Assembly: GCA_017450695.1 (NCBI GenBank)
Contig: JAFSTA010000143.1
Span: 1-43,452 of the forward strand
Length of the DNA: 43,452 bases
Direction: 5' to 3'
From: Kiritimatiellia bacterium
Lineage (GTDB): Bacteria; Verrucomicrobiota; Kiritimatiellia; RFP12; UBA1067
Shown here: piece by piece, positions 3,743-43,155 of the stretch
Position numbering within the stretch: the first letter of the stretch is position 1
How the letters are laid out: each line of letters opens with the position of its first letter
Translations under genes and position numbers: made by a program
Notes under the pieces: model-generated
Seen by the model: only the letters and a program-made list of their open reading frames with translations
The model's database searches: none
What the model was told of the DNA's origin: nothing

Positions 3743-4065
3743 GTGGCGCGACGTCTTTCGCCGTCGCCGCAGAACAAGTTGAAACCGCGAAATACACAGA
3801 GGCGCTACGCCTCAGCTTCCCAACTGAACACGCTTACGCGTATCCAGCTTGACACGCTTCCCCAGTCAAGGCATGGAGGAATGCGTACATCCGTTCACCT
3901 GCTACCTGTTGTATGCAGGTGGCTGAAAAAACTTTGAAAACGATGCGGAGAATGCTCGACAAACGCCTTGGGTTATGCTTGAATATCCTTCTCAATGTGC
4001 GGGTATTGGACTGTTGGTCATGATGACGTCCTGCCAGGCGCAGCGAAGCGAAAGGGGAGTGTACC
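3743..4065. other. Intergenic region with small hairpins
   Basis: I see no gene here. The region holds a variable-stem hairpin at 3799-3813 (GAGGCG, loop CTA, CGCCTC) followed by CAGCTT, which is the reverse complement of the AAGCTG repeat core. A second palindromic stretch lies at ~3834-3845 (ACGC-TTAC-GCGT). A 7-bp stem pairs 3896-3902 (CACCTGC) with 3915-3921 (GCAGGTG). The latter could be a leader structure for the gene at 4066, but nothing identifies it further. Confidence 0.5.
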
Positions 4066-8138: not shown

Positions 8139-8532
8139 GGCTGGTAGCTGAGAAGCTGAGAAGCGGGGGCGCTACGCGCCAGCTGAGAAGCTGAGAGGCT
8201 GAGAGGCTGAGAAGCGGTGCGGGGAGGGACGCGCTTGTCACGTACGTTATGGCTCGCATGTCGCATGTCGCAGATCGGATGTCGGATGTCGAGTGTCGGG
8301 TGTCCATGCGCGCAAGCGGGGGCGCTACGCGCCAGCTGAAAAGCTGAGAGGCTGAGAAGCTGAGAAGTGAGGGGCGGGGACGCACTCCGTCGTGTCCGGT
8401 TATGTAGCGACTGCGGGCGTATGTCGCAGATCGGATGTCGGATGTCGAGTGTCGGGTGTCCATGCGCGCAATCGGGGACGCTACGCGCCAGCCGAGAAGC
8501 GGAGTGGGGGAGGGACGCGCCCCGTCGCGACC
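8139..8532. repeat. Composite intergenic repeat block with two ~156-bp units
   Basis: This stretch between the kinase and the E1-like gene holds no gene. A 51-bp sequence occurs identically at 8265-8315 and 8421-8471. Each copy is followed by a GCGCTACGCGCC hairpin (8168-8180 precedes the first unit; 8321-8333 and ~8478-8489 follow the copies) and by AGCTGAGAAG-type units. The block therefore reads as two degenerate units of about 156 bp plus a partial third. It ends in a GGACGCG-CCCCGT-CGCGACC hairpin (8513-8532). Confidence 0.85.
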
Positions 8533-26033: not shown

Positions 26034-26249
26034 GTGCGGCATGTCTGCCGCACCGCAGAACCCTGCCGCGTCCGGTTGTGCGGCATACATGCCGCACGCT
26101 CGCCGCACCCTCCGCTGCCCCGTCCGGTTGTGCGGCATACATGCCGCACGCTCCAGGGACACGCCGCAAAAAACAAGGGGGCGCGAAGTGCGCCCCCCGT
26201 TTTCCCGTCCGGTTGTGCGGCATACATGCCGCACGCTCCAGGGACACGC
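26034..26249. repeat. Cluster of four REP-like palindromes (copies 3-6)
   Basis: Copies lie at 26034-26053 (GTGCGGCA-TGTC-TGCCGCAC), 26078-26097, 26130-26149 and 26215-26234 (the last three are GTGCGGCATACATGCCGCAC). The last two sit in a 43-44 bp identical direct repeat (26121-26164 and 26206-26249) that extends from CGTCCGGTT to GCTCCAGGGACACGC. The cluster fills the gap between the convergent GHL10 and guaA genes; the last copy overlaps the region just before the guaA stop codon. Confidence 0.93.
26177..26203. terminator. Bidirectional terminator between convergent genes
   Basis: GGGGGCGC (26177-26184) pairs with GCGCCCCC (26190-26197) around GAAGT. It is followed by CGTTTT on the plus strand; on the minus strand, TTGTTTTTTG follows. 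Its position between the GHL10 gene (+) and guaA (-) fits termination in both directions. Confidence 0.7.
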
Positions 26250-27323: not shown

Positions 27324-28580
27324 TCACACCGCGCTCCGCTGGCGCATCCGCAAGAACAGCACGTTGATGTAGTTCAGCGAATAAAAGACCACGAGCAGCA
27401 GGACGACGCCGGTCAGACCCCATTTCTTGAAGACCGGGAGCGCGACCTGGTTGCCGACGAGTCCCGCCACGCCCCACGCCGACAGGACGGCGCCGTGGAT
27501 CTTGGAAATGTTCGTCATGCCGTAGTGGTCGGCGAGTACGGCGGGAATCACCGAGAATCCCGCCCCGTAGCAGGCGGGGATGATGACCAGGCCGACGGCG
27601 AGCAGGACCGGGAGGAAGGAGACCATCATAACCCCGGCGGAAATCGCGAGGATGATGAGCAGGATGTTCACGCGCCGCGCCAGGCGGTCCGACCACCAGG
27701 CGAAGAGGAAGCGCCCCGCCCCGTTCATCAGTCCCATCAGCGTGATGATAAACGTGATGAATCCGTCGGTGTAGGACGGAACGGTCGCCATCAGCTGCTT
27801 CGCCAGCGGAATCAGGCAGAGGCCGCAGGAGATGTTGAGGAACATGAAAAGCCAGGTCTGGAGGAAGTAGCCGTTTTTCGCGAGGCGGACATAGGAGAAC
27901 TCCAGCGCGGGGATGTCATGCGCGAAGGTCATCTGCTGCTGTTCCGGCTTTTTCAGGATCATCGACGAGACCAGCATCGGCACGGCGTAGAAAATCGCGA
28001 AGACGAAGAATACCGTGGTGATGCCGAAGATCTCGAAGCCCTTGAAGCTCATGGAGAAGAGCCGCGTGGAGAATCCGAACCCCTTGTACAGGAGCGTGCA
28101 GAGCGAGGAACCCAGCCCGAAGGAAATGATGGGAACCGCCGCCGCGATCGCCTTCGCGTTCGGAAACCAGAGCATCATGGTCTTGACGGGGGAGATGTAG
28201 ATGACCCCCGTGCCCGTGCCGAGCAGGAAGCCGTAGCCGAGATAGATCAGCGTCAGCGACTTCACGCGCACGCCGATCGCGGTGACGACCAGTCCCGACA
28301 GGAAGAGGATCGTCCCGATCAGGGTGGAGAGCCGGATGTTCTTCTCGACGATCTTCCCGAAAAAGGCTGCGCCCATGCCGAGGAAGAAGATGCCGAGCGA
28401 GAAGGCGAACTGCACCTGCGGTCGAATCGCCTCCGCCGCCTTGATGTCCCCTCCGGTGAGGTATTGGGCGATGGGATCCGAGAATATCGTGAACGCGTAG
28501 ATTTGACCGACGGAAACCGCCAGCAGAAAGGCGGGAAGGACAGCGCGGAAAATCCGCTTGACACCAACTGCATTATTCAT
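27324..28580 (-). CDS. MFS transporter, oxalate/formate antiporter-like (OFA family)
   Basis: The gene encodes a 418-residue inner-membrane protein with 12 predicted helices. The family (OxlT-like) exchanges small carboxylates or related anions. Typical segments are AVSVGQIYAFTIFSDPI, GYGFLLGTGTGVIYISPV, LMGLMNGAGRFLFAWWSDRLARR and YGAGFSVIPAVLADHYG, with a long cytoplasmic loop at the centre (LKKPEQQQMTFAHD). The start ATG 28580 is chosen because AGGAG precedes it by 9 nt. An ATG 9 nt upstream touches the ribosome site, and the longer open frame lacks one. A good promoter lies at 28703-28731. Substrate is not deducible. guaA follows 92 bp downstream on the same strand. Confidence 0.88.
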   Translation of the reverse strand: MNNAVGVKRIFRAVLPAFLLAVSVGQIYAFTIFSDPIAQYLTGGDIKAAEAIRPQVQFAFSLGIFFLGMGAAFFGKIVEKNIRLSTLIGTILFLSGLVVTAIGVRVKSLTLIYLGYGFLLGTGTGVIYISPVKTMMLWFPNAKAIAAAVPIISFGLGSSLCTLLYKGFGFSTRLFSMSFKGFEIFGITTVFFVFAIFYAVPMLVSSMILKKPEQQQMTFAHDIPALEFSYVRLAKNGYFLQTWLFMFLNISCGLCLIPLAKQLMATVPSYTDGFITFIITLMGLMNGAGRFLFAWWSDRLARRVNILLIILAISAGVMMVSFLPVLLAVGLVIIPACYGAGFSVIPAVLADHYGMTNISKIHGAVLSAWGVAGLVGNQVALPVFKKWGLTGVVLLLVVFYSLNYINVLFLRMRQRSAV

Positions 28581-28702
28581 CTGAAACATCTCCTGGTTTG
28601 AATAATGCCCAGACGAACGACTTTGCGAAGGCCTGTGGTTCATGTGGTAAACTCCACCGGAAGGCACCCGCCTTCTTTTCGTCAGTTCCACAGACGGGGA
28701 AC

Positions 28703-28731
28703 ATCATAGCACAAGCCCCCGGAAAGGGCAA
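28703..28731 (-). promoter_or_regulatory. Sigma-70-like promoter of the MFS gene
   Basis: On the minus strand, TTGCCC (28726-28731) and TATGAT (28703-28708) are spaced by 17 nt. The predicted leader is about 115 nt. The tandem hairpin array starts 13 bp upstream of the -35 box. Confidence 0.65.
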
Positions 28732-28743
28732 TCCCTTTTTTGA

Positions 28744-28832
28744 GGCTGCGCCTAAATGGGGCTGGTGCCCCTAAGTGGCGGCTACGCCGCTGAAGTGGCA
28801 CTTCGTGCCTAAGTGGGGCTGTGCCCCTAAGT
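28744..28832. repeat. Tandem array of five short hairpins with different, self-complementary stems
   Basis: The five units are GGC-TGC-GCC (28744-28752), GGGGC-TGGT-GCCCC (28758-28771), GGCGGC-TAC-GCCGCT (28777-28791), GGCAC-TTC-GTGCC (28797-28809) and GGGGC-TGT-GCCCC (28815-28827). They are separated by nearly constant 5-nt linkers TAAAT, TAAGT, GAAGT and TAAGT, and closed by TAAGT (28828-28832). Unit spacing is 14-20 bp. The stems differ between units yet remain paired, so structure rather than sequence appears conserved. The array lies in the divergent-free gap between the beta-helix gene end and the MFS promoter. Confidence 0.9.
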
Positions 28833-28857: not shown

Positions 28858-28942
28858 GTGCGGCATATATGCCGCACACACGCCGCCGCCCTCTGCGCTG
28901 TTTTGCGGGTGGGGTTCTGTGGTGCGGCATATTATGCCGCAC
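28858..28942. repeat. REP-like palindromes, copies 7 and 8
   Basis: GTGCGGCATATATGCCGCAC at 28858-28877 is a perfect 20-bp palindrome and is preceded by CGTTCGGTT. A second copy with an ATATTAT centre lies at 28922-28942. Both are followed by ACACGCGCC-type sequence. They sit just past the stop codon of the beta-helix gene. Confidence 0.9.
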
Positions 28943-28963: not shown

Positions 28964-31124
28964 CTACTGCTTCACGTCGATACGGACGCGGAAGAAGCGG
29001 TTCGGGTTGTACTCTTCCGCGATAATCGTGATCCCGTCTGGATCGTCCACCGCGAGCGGATACTCCGCCACGTTCCCCGTGCCGTCCACGTTGTCGGACG
29101 CGACAATCGTGAACGTGAAGACATCCTTTCCGTTCACCACGGGCAGCGTCTGGATGGCAACCGCGCCCTCGCCGTCGGTCTCGAAGCCGATGATGACGGC
29201 TCCCGCGAAGCTGTCGTCGTCCGCCTTGTCGAACGCATAGCGCAGCACGTTCGGGACCCCGTTCGCGTCCGTCGCGTCCCACGCGCCGCTCAAGCTCGCG
29301 CCGCTCGCCGCAGCCCATGCCTGGATGGCGGCGCTGGCGCTGGCGTTGACATCGTGTGCAAGCGTCCGGACGAGATACGTCGTGGTGGTGTCGTAATACG
29401 GCAGTTCCGCCTCGGTGTCCGTGACCAACAGGCTCGAATCGATGGAGAATCCTCCGCCCTGGGAAACCGGCCTGCAGCCTGACTCCGGCCCGATCAAGTC
29501 GGCATACGTATATTCCACGTATGTGCTTCCATTCCAGAATGGCCCGGTGGGGGCGGCCGCCACCACCTTTACGACATCCGGCCCGATTGCAACCCTGGTG
29601 TACGCGTTTGCGTCACTGTAGTCGGAGGATCCAATCGCGGACGAACCCGAACCGCCGTATGCGGTGACGGTGCCGCCGACGATGGAGATGCTGCCGCCGC
29701 CAGCGGTCGCATACCGATTTTCGCCGATGGCGGCAGCCAGGCTCCTGTAGGTGTTTTGAGCCACAAGCGATCCATCGCCGTCGATCGTGACGGAAGAACC
29801 ATACGGCACGCGTATCGCGGGCATGGTCGGATCGGACGAATCGGTGCCATTCTTGGTCACCGCGATTGCGTTCTCGCCTGCAAGAACAACCGTCACATCG
29901 CCGTTGCAGGTCAATCCGGCCTTCTTTTCCTTTGTGATCGACGCCTCATCGAGCGTCACGGTCACGCCGTCCGCGATGGTGATGTCGTATTCGGCCGTGG
30001 AAGAGCCGAAGATGACCAGGTCGTGCCGCACGGTGATGTCGCGCGTCAGCGTCGAAAGATCGCCGTCCCAGTCCTGATAGTATGTCCGCCTCGTCATCTT
30101 GTTGGACAGGAGGCCGTTCGACACATTGTTGAGCACCTCATCCTCGTAATCCTCGATGCCGTTCAGCGTGACGGTGCCGCAGCTGGAAGGATGGCCGCTG
30201 ACGTCGCCGCCCTTGCCAATCGGATTTGCGACCTTTAGGTGATCCCACTGGACGACGAGTTTCTCCACTCCGGGCTCGATCATGATGTTGCCGCACGACG
30301 TTCCGCATCCCGCGCCGATTGCGGCGGACTCGTTGGCGCCGTATGCCGTGATCGTGCCGCCGCGGATGGTGATGTCGCCGCATCCCTGCCCGGGGTAGTC
30401 GGCATTGTAGCCCGAACCGCTCGTACAGGTACTTGAGCCGATCGCGGCTGCATACTCACCGAACCACTGCGTTTTCGTCGCGTTTATGACGCCGCCCTCG
30501 ATGACGATGTTGCCGCACGAGTCTTCGTTGTCAACCCCCGCCCTGCTGGAGCATCCACCAATGGCGGCGCTGCGCAACGCGCCCCCCACAGACAGCGAGC
30601 CTTCGCCCTGAATCGTCAAGGTGTAGCCTTTCTTGACGTAGATGCCGGAGATGAAGTCGAACCCCATGACCGAGTTTGCCCCTTCGAGCACGATCGTCGC
30701 GTCCCCGAGACACTTGATGCCGGGCCATATATGGGAATTGTTCGGGTCGTTCTCGGGACCGATCACGGCGTCTTTCAGCCATACCTTCGCCCCAGCCGCG
30801 ACCTCTACCTGGTAATTGCCGGACAAACGACCGGTGGCCCGGTTCCCGTTCCTGAGAATGATCTTGCCCGTCGCCTGGGAAAGATCGACCTCCGAGTAGC
30901 CGACGAGCGTCCGCGTCAGGTATTCGGTCGTGTCGTCGATATCCGGGTCGATCATCACGCCGACGCAGGAAGCGACGCCGTTTTCGCTGTAGGGGTTGCT
31001 CTGCCCTTTTCCGATGGGCTCGTTTCCGTCAGACTGCACCCGTGTAGCCGTCACAGAAGTGATGCCGGGGCCAATCGTGATCGTACCACACGATGACGCG
31101 TAGCCGCCGCCAATGCCGCCGCCT
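28964..31124 (-). CDS. C-terminal part of the giant repeat protein (continuation of 31051-36861)
   Basis: This frame is open well upstream, but only the part after about 31124 is sensible. It takes up the module exactly where the other frame loses it (GGGYASSCGTITIGPGITSV). It holds modules 9 and 10 (IKCLGDATIVLEGANSV..GIYVKKGYTLTI and LTCNGDVTVVLAGENAI). After these comes a ~115-residue C-terminal domain (ATDANGVPNVLRYAFDK, FTFTIVASDNVDGTGNVAEYPL, NRFFRVRIDVKQ) also found at the end of the neighbouring gene 37055. That domain is probably a folding or secretion module common to this protein class. The fusion product with 31051-36861 would have ~2630 residues. Confidence 0.85.
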
Positions 31125-34100
31125 GATTGCCGCCGTAGGCGTAAATCGTGCCGCCGTTGATGGTGATGTCGCCGCAGGGGTAGGTGCCGCCGCCGATACC
31201 GGCGCAGTAAGTGCCGCCCCTTGCCGTAACATGGCCGCCGTCGATCACGATGTTGCCGCACGCCGTGTAGCCTCCGGCGCCGATGCCTGCCCCCCAACCG
31301 TTGCTGGAGGCCGTGAGGCTTCCCGTCCCGTTGATCGTCAGCGTACAGCCTTCGGGCACGTAGATGCCGGGGTAGTCCTCGTAGAAGCCGCGAACCGTGC
31401 TGGCGTTCCGGAGGGTAATCGTGGCGTCGCCAAGGCAGGTGAGCCCCGCCCACTGGTAGTCGGGGTAGGCATTCACACCCAGTATCGTCGCCTGCTTGAG
31501 CGTGACGTGCGCGCCGGCGGCGATGGAAATCTTGCAGGCGTGGCCGAGCGTGCCGCTCAGCGTCGCGCCGTCGCGGACCGTGATGGCCGTCACGCTCTCC
31601 GGCAGCGTCGAGAGGTCGAGGTTGAGGGGATAGATGGTGCGGGTTATCGTGCCGATTCCCGCTCCGTCCAGATTCTCCTCTGTTTCGTCGCAAAGTCCGC
31701 CCTGCACCGTAACGCCGCTCGCGTTGTCCATGCTCGTGCCGACCGGCACGGTGCCCAGACCGGCGCTTTGCGCGGTAATCACGCACGTGGCGGAGACGAA
31801 GCCAACGCCCTTCTCTACGGACACGCCGGCGCAACGCGCTTCCCTGCCGCCGCCGATGCCGTTTGCGCGGTCTCCGCCGGTCGCCCTGACGGTTCCGCCC
31901 CTGATCGTGACGGTGCCGCAGTCGGCGTGGTCGCCGCCGCCGATGCCCGCGCAGTACGTGCCGCCATTGGCATTGATCACGCCGCCCTCGATCACGATGT
32001 TGCCGCACGATATGTTGCCGCCGCCGCCGATACCCGCGCCGCGTCCGTTGCTGCTTGCGTCGAGCGAGCCGTCGCCCTTGATTGTCAGCGTCTTGTACCT
32101 GGGAACGTAGATGCCGGGATATTCCTCGTAGAATCCCTTGACGGTATTCTCGCCCACGAGAATGATCGTCGCGTCGCCGAGGCAGGTGATGCCCGCCCAC
32201 GGATAGCCGGAGTTGTTCACGCCGTTGATGGTCGCGTTGTCGAGCGTCACCGTGGCGCCGGCGGCGATGACGATCTGGCGGTTGGCGCCGAGCGTGCCGC
32301 TGATCGTCGCGTTGTCCCGCGCAACCACCGCCTCTTCGCCGCCCGCAAGCGAACCAAGCGCGACGTTCGGGAAGATGACGCGCCGCGAGCCGCCGTCAAG
32401 CGTCGTGTCCGAGAGACCCGACACGACGGTGATCGTGCCGCAGCTTGAGTATTGGTTTGCGGCACCTATCGGAACGGCGGTATTGTCGCCGCGAATGGCC
32501 TCCACGTACGTGATGCCGTAGTTGATCGTGACGTCGCCGCAGGAGGAGTGACCTGTGCCGGCGCCGATACCGCATCCGCCGCTGCCGCCCTTCGCGGTCA
32601 CGACGCCGCCGTTGATCGTAATATTCCCGCAGGAGGCAGAACTCGTGCCCGCGCCGATGCCGGCGCACTGCGCACCGCCCTCGGCGTAGATCGTGCCGCC
32701 CTCGATGACGATGTTGCCGCAGGACAGTGCCCATCCGCCGCCGATGCCCGCCGCGTAGTCGAAGGCGTAAGCGTTGAGTTCGCCGTTCTCGTTCTTGCTC
32801 TTGATCGTGAGCGTGTACCCGCTCGGCACATGGATGCCGGGGCAGCGGTAGGAACCCCGGACAATGTTTGTCCCCTCAAGCCAGATCGTGGCGTCGCCGA
32901 GGCAGTTGATGCCCGCCCACGCGCAGCTGCTGTCGTTGTTGCCCGGGATGACCACGTTGTTGAGCGTCACCTCCGCGTCGGCGGCGAGGGATATCTTGCG
33001 GTCCGCGCCAAGCGTGCCTGTCACGATGGCGCCGCTTGCGATCACCTTTTCGCCCGTCCCCGTCAGCTCGGAGAGGTCGGTGTTCGGGTCGGGTTCGAAT
33101 TGGCGGTAATAGCTGATTCCGCCGCTGGGCGTCGTTTCGATTACGCCTTTGGCAATATGGAAGTAGCCTCCGAGAGTCGATCCGTAAGAGCCGAACCCAA
33201 TCTCGTACGGGCAGTTTTCACCGCGCTGGGCCTGCACCTTGACGATTCCCGGATTGATCTGGACGCCGTCGCACCAGCCGTTGTAGCCGAAACCGATGCC
33301 CGAGGCCGTGTCGCCGCCGTAGCACTCTATATCGCCGCCGTTGATCACGATCTCGCCGCAATCAAGGCAATCCGCCGCAGAGCCGCCGCCGATGCCGGCG
33401 CCGCCGCTCGCGCCGTAGTTGTTCGCCGTAAGCGTACCCTTCCCCTCAATGGTGAGCGTGCAGCCCTGCGGCACGTAGATGCCGGGATAGTCGGCGTAGA
33501 ACGAGGAGACTTCGTTCGTGTTCATCAGCGTGATCGTGGCGTCGCCGAGGCAGGTGATGCCCGCCCACGGCGTGTCGTCGCTCTTGGCCGTCGTCTTGTT
33601 GATCATCGCGTTGTTGAGCGTCACGTGCGCGCCGGGCCAGATTTTCACCTTTACCTTCTTGTTGCTGTCGGAGATTGTACCCGTGATCGTTTTGCCGTCG
33701 AGCGCCGTGAACTCGAGCGTATCGCTGCTTTCGCTGCCCGCAAGGCTCAAGTTGCCGTTCCACGAATAAGTTCTGGTGTTGCCGCTATCCGTGTAATTCA
33801 GGCAGACGCTGATGTCGATGTGACGAAGCGAACCGCCCTCGCCCGTGCCGATATAGGCCGGAGCGCCTTCACCCTTTGTCGCCACGACCTTGGCGATACC
33901 TGATCTGACATAGACGGCGTAGCCTGCGCCGTTATAGCCAACGCCGATGCCGGGCGCATTCGCACCGCCGGTGGCGTTCACGATGCCGCCTTCGATGCTG
34001 ACGGTGCTGCAATTGCCCATGTAGGCACCGCCGATGCCAGCAGCCCCATATCCGCCCGTCGCCGTGACGTCGCCGCCCGCGACCACGATGGAACCGCTTA

Positions 34101-36861
34101 ATTGTTCGCGCACGCCGCCGATGCCCGCGCCGCCGGACGTGCCGCCGACGGCTTCAAGGCTGCCAGTCCCCCCGATCGTGAGCGTGTAGCCCGAAGGAAC
34201 GGATATGCCGGGGAAGTATTCGTTGAACGACCCGACGCAGTTCGTGCCCTCGAGGATGATCGTCGCGTTGCCGAGGCAGGTGAGGCCCGCGTAGGGGCTG
34301 TCCATGCTGGAGGACGTGGGCCAGATCGTCGCGTCGCGCAAGGTCACCGTCGCGTCCGGCGCGATCGCGATCTTGTGCCGCCCGTGGAGCGTACCCGTGA
34401 TGACCGTGTTGCTTCCGGCAATCGCCTCGCTGTCGGGTTCTTCAGTGCCTGAAAGGTCAAGGTCGGTCTCGCCGGCACCAAGAAGTTTTGGCAACGCGCT
34501 CGCCAACTTCATCGTCTTCTTGGCTCCCTTCGCCCCGCCGCTTTCCTCGTCGTCATCGCCAAGCCCGTCAAGATTTCCGTTGAACGAAATCTTTTCAGTG
34601 CAGTTCTTGAAGTAGCCGGACCCGTTGAAGCCTGATACTTCTTCGGTCTCGCGTTTCAAACTGCTCCCGATTACGATCTCCGAATTGTCGCTGTTGCTAA
34701 ACGCATGAAATCCCGCAAGCTCGGCGGACGCTCCGGTTTTGTATGCGATGGCCGTCGTGCTGCCGCCGACGAACTCAATGCGCTTGCCCACTATGCCTCT
34801 GCCGCCGTCGCCGCCGTATGCGTTGATTACGCCACCTTCGATGACGACGTTCGATCCACCCTCGATGCCGTCGCCGCCCCTGCCGCCTTGGAGCGTGAGC
34901 GTGCCGTTCCCCTTTAACGTGAGCTTCTTGCCGTTGGCGACGGATATGCCGGCCCGCGAATCGGTCGCCTCTATTAGATTGTCTCCCTTGATCTTGATTT
35001 TTGCATCGCCCATGCACCTGATCCCGCTGTGATATCGAGGCGTCGTTGCCATCATGCTATAGTCAGGCCAATCCACCGCATCCTTCTTGTGGCGGGAAAA
35101 AACTGCGCCCTCTTCCATCGAACGTTCAACGCCGCATTCTGGGCGCATTATCACCGCGTCCTTGAGCGTAACTCTCGCGCCATCTGCAATCCGAATTTCC
35201 CGATCGTATACAAATCCAAAATAATCGATTCTCTTGGGGGATGGCAAATTTCCTGTAATGGTAATGTCGTCGTGCGCCACGATATAGACTTCATCTCCCG
35301 CATCGTCGATTATGGCGTCGGGGACTTTGTCAAGGCGGCCGTTCCAGCGGAAGAACTCCTCGTCGCCGTCTGAAGTCACCTTGACGCCGTCCGAAATAAA
35401 GGTTTTCTCCTGGTCTGCGAGGGGAACGCCGCCCCGGGCGCGGAGAGAGCCGCCGTAGATCATGACATCGTCCCCGAAGACGCGCGTCGAGCCGTCTTCC
35501 TTGAAGAAGCCGCCTAGCGCCGATGCAGACTCGCCGCCAATGGCGGTAATTTCCCCGCTAAGGATTCTGATTTTGCCGCACGGTTTGATTGAAGATGCTC
35601 CCCAACCAAAGCCGCCAATGGCGGCTGCGCTCTTGCCGCCGCTGACTACGGTCAGAGAACCATCGCCTTGTATGCTGAGAGTGGCACCTTCGGGAACGAA
35701 GATCCCGGGACTGTATTCGCCATGTCCCTTGATGTAGTTCTCTCCCTTGAGGATGATTATCGCGTCACCCATACATGTGATGCCAGGAATATCGCTCCTC
35801 AGCCCGCCGGCAACCGTCACGCCGTCAAACACGATTTCCGCACCTTTGTCGATGGTAATCTTGTAGTCTCCAGACACCTCGCCTCTTAGGCAGCTTCGCC
35901 TCCATTCGACGTATTTTCCCTGGACATGCTCGTCGCTGATGGTTTTGTTCCGAAAGCCGCCGAGCTGGCTGGCGACGGTAAGTGTTCGGTGGCTGTTCCA
36001 GTCGAGTGCGCTTTCCTTGCCGCCGGGATAGCCGTCATCCACCTTTTTGGTGTTGGTGCCGGCATACCCGTCGCTCAGGCCGTCCACGACGCCGTAATCG
36101 ACCGATTTGGCGTGGACGAGGTAGGAATCGGGGAGGCCTTCGCCGACGACGGCCCTCACCCTTCCGATGGTCTGCTCGAATACGACGCCTTCGCATAGGT
36201 CGGGTTCGTAGCCGCCGATTGCAGGCTGTGAAAGGCCGGAGCCCCAGGAGATCACGTTGCCGCGCTCGAAGGTGATCGTGCCGCAGGTGGCGCCCTGGCC
36301 GCTGCCGATGCCGGGGCCGCCGTAGGACCCGCCAGGATGGACGATGACGACGCCCGAGCCGTATTCGGTCTCCCCGTCTTCCGACTGTCCGCCCCAGGCT
36401 TCTATCCAGCCGCCCGCGATGACGATGTTTCCGCAGTCCTTCATGTAGCCGCCGCCGATACCCGCGGCCAGCCCGCGCCCCCAAACGGTGAGATTGCCAA
36501 AGCCCTTGATCGTGAGCGTGTGGTCCGGCGGGACGAAGATGCCGGCGTTGTCGCCGCCGAGCGCGCGGATGTAGTTTTCGCCCTCGAGGATGATCGTCGC
36601 GTCGCCCTTGCACGTCAGGCCGGCGCAATCCTTGTAGAGGTTCAAGCCTTTGTTGATATCGACGTTTTTCAACGTCACCGTCGCGCCCTCGGCAATGGAT
36701 ATCCTGTAGTCGCCGGAAAGCGTGCCGGTTATGACCGACCCGTCCTTTACGACCTTGTTGCCGGTCACCTTACCCAGTTTGACCGTGTCGGCGAATGAAC
36801 CTGCGGCCAGGCAAAGAACCGCCGCGAAGGTTGCGAGTCTTGGATGCGTATGTGTCATCAT
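31051..36861 (-). CDS. Giant secreted beta-helix-like repeat protein, N-terminal part
   Basis: The start is ATG 36861 (or 36858), with AAGGAAACGG upstream. The signal peptide is LATFAAVLCLAAGSFA. The rest is built from ~150-200-residue modules with the order VITGTLSG-YRISIAEGATVTL, then AGLTCKGDATIILEGEN, then PGIYVPEGCTLTI-G-GSLTA, then GAGIGGG--CGNIVI-GG and CGTITI. Eight modules lie in this frame. The short Gly-rich, Val/Ile-rich repeats suggest a parallel beta-helix, as in carbohydrate-binding or adhesin-like surface proteins; this is inference. The frame fails near 31117-31124: one base is missing in a GGC-rich run, and the C-terminal part continues in 28964-31124. The last ~20 residues of this frame (TRHRVVRSRLAPASLL) are out-of-frame junk. 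Confidence 0.88.
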   Translation of the reverse strand: MMTHTHPRLATFAAVLCLAAGSFADTVKLGKVTGNKVVKDGSVITGTLSGDYRISIAEGATVTLKNVDINKGLNLYKDCAGLTCKGDATIILEGENYIRALGGDNAGIFVPPDHTLTIKGFGNLTVWGRGLAAGIGGGYMKDCGNIVIAGGWIEAWGGQSEDGETEYGSGVVIVHPGGSYGGPGIGSGQGATCGTITFERGNVISWGSGLSQPAIGGYEPDLCEGVVFEQTIGRVRAVVGEGLPDSYLVHAKSVDYGVVDGLSDGYAGTNTKKVDDGYPGGKESALDWNSHRTLTVASQLGGFRNKTISDEHVQGKYVEWRRSCLRGEVSGDYKITIDKGAEIVFDGVTVAGGLRSDIPGITCMGDAIIILKGENYIKGHGEYSPGIFVPEGATLSIQGDGSLTVVSGGKSAAAIGGFGWGASSIKPCGKIRILSGEITAIGGESASALGGFFKEDGSTRVFGDDVMIYGGSLRARGGVPLADQEKTFISDGVKVTSDGDEEFFRWNGRLDKVPDAIIDDAGDEVYIVAHDDITITGNLPSPKRIDYFGFVYDREIRIADGARVTLKDAVIMRPECGVERSMEEGAVFSRHKKDAVDWPDYSMMATTPRYHSGIRCMGDAKIKIKGDNLIEATDSRAGISVANGKKLTLKGNGTLTLQGGRGGDGIEGGSNVVIEGGVINAYGGDGGRGIVGKRIEFVGGSTTAIAYKTGASAELAGFHAFSNSDNSEIVIGSSLKRETEEVSGFNGSGYFKNCTEKISFNGNLDGLGDDDEESGGAKGAKKTMKLASALPKLLGAGETDLDLSGTEEPDSEAIAGSNTVITGTLHGRHKIAIAPDATVTLRDATIWPTSSSMDSPYAGLTCLGNATIILEGTNCVGSFNEYFPGISVPSGYTLTIGGTGSLEAVGGTSGGAGIGGVREQLSGSIVVAGGDVTATGGYGAAGIGGAYMGNCSTVSIEGGIVNATGGANAPGIGVGYNGAGYAVYVRSGIAKVVATKGEGAPAYIGTGEGGSLRHIDISVCLNYTDSGNTRTYSWNGNLSLAGSESSDTLEFTALDGKTITGTISDSNKKVKVKIWPGAHVTLNNAMINKTTAKSDDTPWAGITCLGDATITLMNTNEVSSFYADYPGIYVPQGCTLTIEGKGTLTANNYGASGGAGIGGGSAADCLDCGEIVINGGDIECYGGDTASGIGFGYNGWCDGVQINPGIVKVQAQRGENCPYEIGFGSYGSTLGGYFHIAKGVIETTPSGGISYYRQFEPDPNTDLSELTGTGEKVIASGAIVTGTLGADRKISLAADAEVTLNNVVIPGNNDSSCAWAGINCLGDATIWLEGTNIVRGSYRCPGIHVPSGYTLTIKSKNENGELNAYAFDYAAGIGGGWALSCGNIVIEGGTIYAEGGAQCAGIGAGTSSASCGNITINGGVVTAKGGSGGCGIGAGTGHSSCGDVTINYGITYVEAIRGDNTAVPIGAANQYSSCGTITVVSGLSDTTLDGGSRRVIFPNVALGSLAGGEEAVVARDNATISGTLGANRQIVIAAGATVTLDNATINGVNNSGYPWAGITCLGDATIILVGENTVKGFYEEYPGIYVPRYKTLTIKGDGSLDASSNGRGAGIGGGGNISCGNIVIEGGVINANGGTYCAGIGGGDHADCGTVTIRGGTVRATGGDRANGIGGGREARCAGVSVEKGVGFVSATCVITAQSAGLGTVPVGTSMDNASGVTVQGGLCDETEENLDGAGIGTITRTIYPLNLDLSTLPESVTAITVRDGATLSGTLGHACKISIAAGAHVTLKQATILGVNAYPDYQWAGLTCLGDATITLRNASTVRGFYEDYPGIYVPEGCTLTINGTGSLTASSNGWGAGIGAGGYTACGNIVIDGGHVTARGGTYCAGIGGGTYPCGDITINGGTIYAYGGNQAAALAAATRHRVVRSRLAPASLL

Positions 36862-36968
36862 GATCCGTTTCCTTTTCGTATGATTGGGTTTCCTGTAACT
36901 CCACAAAAGAATCGTATCGCATTTCCCGGCCGCGACTTGCGGCCTGCGGCCGGCGGGTGCGTCTCATT

Positions 36969-42460: not shown

Positions 42461-43092
42461 TGTGGATGGAAGGGGGAGTCGTTTTTTGGGTGATTGTCGT
42501 AATCGGTGCGTTGGCGCTGCTCGTCTTCTTCGAACGGTTGCTCCATTTGCGCCGGGCTCGGATTGATTACCGCGATTTCATCAAGGGCGTCTGCAATGTG
42601 CTGGAGAAGGGGAACACCGACGAGGCGCTGATGCTCTGCGAGGAGACGCCCGGCCCCGTCTCGGCGGTGGTCGATGCCGCCGTCAGCCATCGGAACGAAT
42701 CGCACGAGACGCTTCGCGACGTCGTGGGAACGACGGGACACGCCCAGCTCTCCTTGCTGGAAAGGCGACTGGTCTTCCTTTCGCTGAGTTGCGAGATCGC
42801 GCCGCTCTGCGGGCTCTTCGGCGCGGTGCTCTCCGCGTTGCAGATCGCGCAGACGCTTTCGGCGCAGTCGCAGGTCGTGGTGACGACCGACCTGAGCGGC
42901 GGTCTGACGCGCGCGATCCTCTGCGTGCTGGCGGGCATCCTCGTTTCGATCGAGTGCCATGTCCTCTACGCCATGCTGATGTCCCGCATCGAACGGATCG
43001 CACTGGAGATCGACGCCGGCTCCGCCGAAATCGTCGCCTTCCTCACACGCCGTGGCGGCGGGGAAGCTGAGGCGGCTGATGCCGCCAGCTGA
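42460..43092 (+). CDS. ExbB/TolQ/MotA-family proton channel protein
   Basis: This 210-residue inner-membrane protein has three helices: ~7-27 (VVFWVIVVIGALALLVFFERL), ~107-129 (LSLSCEIAPLCGLFGAVLSAL) and ~149-170 (AILCVLAGILVSIECHVLYAML). The large cytoplasmic loop (DYRDFIKGVCNVLEKGNTDEAL) between helices 1 and 2 is typical of ExbB/TolQ. Such proteins with ExbD/TolR use the proton gradient to energise TonB- or TolA-like partners. The start overlaps the TPR gene stop. No exbD follows in the remaining 360 bp, which is unusual. The last codons (EAEAADAAS and the stop TGA) lie inside a copy of the intergenic hairpin/AGCTGAGAAG repeat, so the natural C-terminus may have been altered by repeat insertion. 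Confidence 0.88.
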   Translation: MWMEGGVVFWVIVVIGALALLVFFERLLHLRRARIDYRDFIKGVCNVLEKGNTDEALMLCEETPGPVSAVVDAAVSHRNESHETLRDVVGTTGHAQLSLLERRLVFLSLSCEIAPLCGLFGAVLSALQIAQTLSAQSQVVVTTDLSGGLTRAILCVLAGILVSIECHVLYAMLMSRIERIALEIDAGSAEIVAFLTRRGGGEAEAADAAS

Positions 43093-43155
43093 GAAGCTGA
43101 GAGGCTGAGAAGCTGAGAAGCGGGGAAGCTGAGAGGCTGAGAAGCTGAGAAGATA
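43066..43155 (+). repeat. Hairpin plus AGCTGAGAAG tandem repeat overlapping the exbB end
   Basis: GGCGGC-TGAT-GCCGCC (~43071-43086) is followed by about seven AGCTGAGAAG, AGCTGAGAGG and AGCGGGGA units up to 43155. This is the longest clean copy of the composite repeat, and it supplies the stop codon of the exbB-like gene. Confidence 0.88.

Follow-up and report, generated by a model that had tools for sequence, protein, structure and literature searches.

The DNA analysed here (hereafter the window) is a 43,452 nucleotide stretch from a Kiritimatiellia bacterium (assembly GCA_017450695.1, contig JAFSTA010000143.1), the genome of which, designated G000, comprised 5.0 Mb on 287 contigs. The window was found to contain a tandem array of small hairpins between an MFS transporter gene and an upstream gene belonging to a larger beta-helix-type protein region (Table 1). 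The raw ORF list placed the start of the MFS gene incorrectly, at 28691; the true coding start follows the aptamer of a ZMP/ZTP riboswitch in the leader. Inspection of the promoter region placed the array upstream of the probable -35 box, with a gap of ~11 nt, and therefore outside the MFS mRNA. On the other side of the array, Beta_helix_3 was encoded by the ORF (31051-36906) adjoining the upstream gene. A search of the window against Rfam at the gathering score returned the neighbouring riboswitch as its sole match; the array was unmatched.

Table 1. Positions of the hairpin array, its parts and its neighbours within the window.
Feature	Position (bp)	Strand	Basis or remark
MFS transporter, lactate/oxalate-formate type	27324..28589	-	Neighbour; start set behind riboswitch
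ZMP/ZTP riboswitch, MFS leader	28600..28699	-	RF01750, 51.3 bits
Probable MFS promoter	28704..28732	-	-35 TTGCCC 28732-28727, 17 nt, -10 TATGAT 28709-28704; by inspection
Whole tandem hairpin array, TAAGT orientation	28744..28832	+	5 units, one arm only
Hairpin 1, GGC-TGC-GCC, stem only 3 bp	28744..28752	+	Sequence and DNA folding
Linker TAAAT	28753..28757	+	Sequence
Hairpin 2, GGGGC-TGGT-GCCCC	28758..28771	+	Sequence
Linker TAAGT	28772..28776	+	Sequence
Hairpin 3, GCGGC-TAC-GCCGC	28778..28790	+	Sequence and DNA folding
Linker GAAGT, within TGAAGT	28792..28796	+	Sequence
Hairpin 4, GGCAC-TTC-GTGCC	28797..28809	+	Sequence
Linker TAAGT	28810..28814	+	Sequence
Hairpin 5, GGGGC-TGT-GCCCC	28815..28827	+	Sequence
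Linker TAAGT	28828..28832	+	Sequence
Upstream gene, larger beta-helix-type protein region	28964..31039	-	Own gene finder; stop 136 nt from array

The sequence and coordinates of the array agreed with the original prediction of five hairpins in a row, each with its own complement, joined by near-constant linkers (TAAAT, TAAGT and TGAAGT). One cluster of at least three linker-plus-hairpin units was present in the window, compared with none in 40 first-order Markov shuffles. Folding of the array as single-stranded DNA returned exactly these hairpins (z = -4.2 and -4.6 for the two strands), whereas RNA folding gave z scores of only -2.3 and -2.8, the two GGGGC hairpins pairing mutually over a long range instead of separately. 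No hairpin of the array was followed by the T run of an intrinsic terminator; TAAGT or TAAAT (ACTTA on the other strand) was found instead.

The single hairpins at 3799, 8168, 8321, 12132, 26002, 27250 and 39879, which had been regarded as related, were real stem-loops but are not units of the same family, as the TAAGT-type linker was missing. Those at 8168, 8321 and 39879 were surrounded by a different, GCTGAGAAGCTGAGAGG-type repeat. Tandem GCTGAGAAGCTGAGAGG repeats were also observed between genes at 1517, 4848, 8147-8343 and 43088-43128 of the window, some of them beside GGCGCTACGCGCC hairpins. Additionally, a second palindrome, TGCGGCAT-N3-TGCCGCA, was found at 26035-26233, 28859-28876, 28923-28941, 17216 and 37008. 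It occurred eight times in the window (four copies clustered between 26035 and 26233) and three times on contig C191 (L164), with none elsewhere in the 0.6 Mb sampled, and possibly represents protein-binding sites or another repeat family.

Arrays like that of the window recurred in its genome and in relatives; together with the covariation described below, this means that the observation withstood the refutation originally proposed for it. In G000 the strict two-linker pattern CTAAGTGG-N5-20-CCTAAGT gave 90 matches and the reversed control gave none. The unit of this family is a TAAGT linker followed by a hairpin, most commonly 18 nt in length (TAAGT, GNNNC, TNC, GN'N'N'C); 62 of 77 triloops in G000 were TNC. 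On the opposite strand the unit reads as ACTTA and a hairpin with a GNA loop, C(TNC)G there becoming C(GNA)G. Any particular stability of C(GNA)G loops is argued here from the literature only; the parameter set used for the DNA folding energies did not distinguish GNA triloops from other triloops. Two-armed arrays were common, in which TAAGT units were followed by a centre of 1-2 nt (e.g. TAAGT-TC-ACTTA) and by mirror ACTTA units, such that a full array is a quasi-palindrome that starts with (AT)TAAGT and finishes with ACTTA(AT). Tandem duplications of several units were also found, as GCCGC/GCCCC dimers in genome G154 and as three-unit repeats on contig C147 of G000.

The stems differed from unit to unit while their pairing was retained, as predicted, to an extent well beyond chance. 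A perfect 5 bp stem was present in 45 of 88 distinct TAAGT-N13-TAAGT units, compared with a mean of 3.7 (maximum 12) when the 3′ arms were swapped between units; this set held all distinct 18-mers in the loci sampled, unrelated ones included. Among 137 distinct units of G000, the outer 4 bp were paired in 71, compared with 6.9 (maximum 16) after the arm swap. A set of 46 hand-picked units showed 97% of cells paired and 71 double changes at the three inner pairs, with far lower values for slid controls; as hand-picking favours pairing, the 88-unit test is the fair one. Single stem mismatches on the TAAGT strand were G.U in 23 cases and A.C in 22. As these were equally common, nothing pointed to selection acting on a single RNA strand, and the proposal that folded RNA is the selected form is unsupported.

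The distribution of the family was narrow and patchy. A three-linker pattern detected arrays in 9 of the 162 genomes of the order, one of which (G083) had a single, unpaired-looking match, and a single-unit pattern, TAAGTGNNNCTNCGNNNCTAAGT, was found in 11 of the 346 genomes of the class, all within one order, with no control matches. None of about 258 genomes sampled from other parts of the phylum contained arrays. Within genera, arrays were present in 2 of 4 species of the window's genus, 5 of 16 in g13 and 1 of about 60 in g6. When a narrow pattern was run against 84,980 species genomes and also against viral contigs, nearly all matches were unrelated repeats; genuine arrays came from two rumen bins, one Kiritimatiellae and one Lentisphaerae. 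A signal for the reversed pattern in three genomes was traced to unrelated tandem repeats that are not of this family. The family was undescribed in the literature searched.

The context of the arrays in the window's genus was analysed in 0.6 Mb of genome, with stretches chosen partly for containing arrays and genes called by a simple home-made codon-usage gene finder. None of 40 arrays lay in a predicted gene, coding sequence making up 78% of the sampled DNA, and the period of the intergenic units was 16-21 nt. Array ends in the TAAGT orientation sat behind genes: a stop codon lay no more than 20 nt away in 15 cases and a start codon in none, and array ends of the other kind never came as close as this to a gene. 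The neighbours of the arrays were genes of many kinds, with identical blocks beside unrelated genes throughout the window's genome; none of ten array-adjacent genes examined encoded a transposase. At 9573-9575 of L167, a GH31-type glycosidase gene ended on the TAA with which the first array linker (TAAAT) begins. This gene showed a partial family match only, and may have been truncated by the array.

The window array was absent from the orthologous locus in all four relatives (G001, of the same genus and with a 93% identical MFS protein, G002, G068 and G072) in which the MFS gene and the ZTP riboswitch were conserved. Similarly, an array lay behind an RlmB-type gene in G000 and was not present behind its orthologues in G001, G002 and G003. 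These absences indicate that copies are gained and lost quickly and that the window copy does not belong to the conserved control of the MFS gene.

In other genera, arrays were found in frame within long ORFs, in g13 (G066, G068, G069, G072 and G074), in g22 (G154, G157 and G027) and in the rumen bin RUG572 (L054). The genes concerned included those for a xylulokinase (NCBIfam TIGR01312, above the cut-off), a carboxynorspermidine decarboxylase, a glycyl radical enzyme, a short-chain dehydrogenase (by inspection) and a large protein with arrays at two sites, which hydrazine synthase alpha (HZSA) and formylglycine-enzyme (FGE)-like domains matched weakly. The period of the coding arrays was 18 nt, or six codons. 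Linker spacing was divisible by three in 122 of 135 coding-array cases compared with 110 of 211 intergenic ones (P = 1e-14), the coding cases being not independent, as several are paralogues or share ancestry. The centre gap was 2 nt in all nine coding cases, a length that leaves the two arms open in the same frame. Such a frame constraint favours reading through the insert over splicing or ribosomal bypass, neither of which needs a frame.

The flanks of the array aligned on both sides to xylulokinase and to the solved decarboxylase, the array being the sole extra sequence; a predicted insert-spanning peptide of an array-bearing g13 species is, for example, LSAASQLSGPSG. Alignment of the decarboxylase with a solved structure (9eaf) extended up to the insert, where about 48 query residues replaced two. 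At one xylulokinase (xylB) site in a single genus, the number of extra residues was 0 in G161, 26 in G157, 29 in G027 and 86 in G154, the G154 array differing by a repeated two-hairpin block. The empty site in G161, GAAGTCGGCAAGC, might be what a deletion left behind and not a site that had never held an array. The first stem of the xylB array read CGGCTGC/GCAGCC in G068 and CGGCGGC/GCCGCC in g22, both sides of the stem having changed at the same site. Because xylB arrays in two families shared their stem order, some arrays are old and either inherited or transferred with the gene.

Repeats of other kinds were also observed in these two enzymes. The decarboxylases of L091 and L092 had a second in-frame insert at residues about 146-179, formed by a different palindromic repeat (GGGAGGGACGCGCTCC... 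type) and absent from the solved structure; palindromic inserts of several kinds are thus tolerated in the coding sequence of these genomes. In the xylulokinase of G071 (L223), the loop homologous to the array site contained a different palindromic repeat of the GTTCAAAGTT...AACTTTGAAC type, and this loop may be a general landing place.

The window array is one copy of a family of dispersed, modular palindromic repeats, which we consider to be probably new, REP/REPIN/RPE-like in kind and selfish or mobile in behaviour. A selfish repeat is favoured over a switch for neighbouring genes because arrays lie behind genes in this and a sister species and in frame inside enzymes elsewhere. The building block is a fixed linker with a small C(TNC)G-loop hairpin, the stem being exchangeable as long as it is self-complementary. 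The propagated unit would be the folded DNA hairpin, given the equal numbers of G.U and A.C mismatches and the indifference of the family to being transcribed as 3′ UTR or as codons. Arrays would be seeded at new sites, would then expand or contract by tandem duplication, and would survive where harm is small, either following a stop codon or forming an open, in-frame addition to the loop of a protein. The family with its covariation and architecture, the change in block copy number at one site, the patchiness, the empty orthologous sites and the two contexts are direct observations. Against mobility, transposition went unobserved, a target duplication like that of a MITE was not definable at the filled and empty xylB sites, the empty one being perhaps a deletion remnant, and the shared stem order of xylB arrays also counts against it. 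Y1 transposases (Y1_Tnp) were present in each of 30 genomes, whether or not these carried arrays, and no family array was found at 12 Y1 loci inspected; a RAYT/Y1 transposase is disfavoured as the driver, as there was neither a correlation in presence nor adjacency.

A less likely explanation, although one to be taken seriously, is that the arrays are a by-product of mutation, in which template switching perfects short hairpins and slippage multiplies them, and neither transposition nor selection for structure is needed. The balance of G.U and A.C mismatches is as expected without strand-specific selection, and the plain multi-unit duplications in G154 and G000 and the changes in array size at the xylB site also fit. 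However, TAAGT and the C(TNC)G loop were constant across unrelated loci in several genera, with the loop tied to the orientation of the linker, and in-place repair of symmetry does not predict such constancy; the patchy presence within genera also counts against it. Strand-switching repair of symmetry could nevertheless produce part of the covariation without selection.

Protection of mRNA 3′ ends and the uncoupling of neighbouring genes have been proposed for REP sequences, and the clustering of TAAGT-orientation ends behind stop codons would suit a comparable 3′-UTR RNA element in the window's genus. We regard this as improbable, since there was no excess of G.U on the TAAGT strand, the same arrays lie within coding sequence in other genera, the RlmB-type orthologues had no array behind them and the window copy, 136 nt from the nearest stop codon, is in the opposite orientation. 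A role in MFS regulation, through RNA or the binding of a protein, was originally suggested from the position of the array next to the promoter. Although the array does end close to the probable -35 box, such a role is highly improbable and went unsupported: the array is outside the MFS transcript, it was missing from four conserved MFS/ZTP loci, one of them in the same genus, and identical blocks accompany unrelated genes. It is scarcely credible that the inserts serve a function in the protein and were selected for the LSAASQ- or REATLR-type peptides they encode, for although the coding copies were always open and in frame, DNA pairing was kept, a peptide can be no reason for intergenic blocks at 16-21 nt periods, and insert-free homologues were intact.

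A bolder formulation can be offered tentatively. The arrays may belong to a class of element whose heritable identity lies in the fold, the linker and the loop rather than in the stem, with GNA-loop tandem DNA mini-hairpins copied by a hairpin-recognising enzyme and spreading both behind genes and, at a six-codon period, in frame, where they add up to 86 residues to working proteins. The occurrence of one hairpin family in two contexts, with a free period outside genes and a strict six-codon period inside them, is an unusually clean natural experiment that separates selection on a nucleic acid fold from selection on the encoded peptide. The orthologous xylulokinase site allows empty, short and long states to be compared. 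For annotation, it is worth knowing that the low-complexity LSAASQ/REATLR stretches of such proteins are inserted sequence.

In-frame palindromic insertion is best known from the intracellular Rickettsia and Wolbachia, and the present arrays extend it to rumen bacteria. Rickettsia palindromic elements (RPEs) are repeats found between genes and also in frame in conserved protein genes, where they are apparently tolerated by the enzymes (PMC2229807), and in-frame palindromic insertion has also been reported in Methanocaldococcus (PMC2996958). The present family resembles RPEs in its in-frame insertion into conserved enzymes, which was observed in other genera and not in the window's genome. However, an RPE consists of one long stem-loop (105-146 bp) bounded by inverted repeats of 12 bp, whereas the family forms chains of 9-19 nt hairpins with termini of about 7 bp (ATTAAGT/ACTTAAT). 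Its blocks of about 18 bp, variable stems, constant linker and unrelated phylum set it apart by the features described.

With REP, REPIN and BIME sequences the family shares short dispersed palindromes, some in tandem clusters, and compensated hairpins, compensatory changes having been reported for REPINs (PMC3116915). REPs carry GTAG or CGTC tags (PMC3733652), whereas the tag in all units of the family was TAAGT. REPs are extragenic and RAYT-linked, while the family can be coding and no link to a RAYT was found; the stem is conserved within a REP/REPIN family, whereas the inner stem pairs vary freely here. Palindromic amphipathic repeat coding elements (PARCELs) are tandem in-frame repeats with dyad symmetry (PMC2996958), but these are 25-residue (75-nt) repeats conserved as protein, in contrast to a six-codon unit that conserves DNA pairing and also forms non-coding arrays. 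Hairpin elements of mitochondrial genomes (sponge and others) are dispersed between genes and sometimes tandem (PMC2800124); their stems are conserved and their loops vary, the reverse of the family, in which loops and linkers are conserved and stems vary. Although it fails the defining features of RPE and REPIN, the family is to be placed among the short palindromic interspersed repeats of bacteria.
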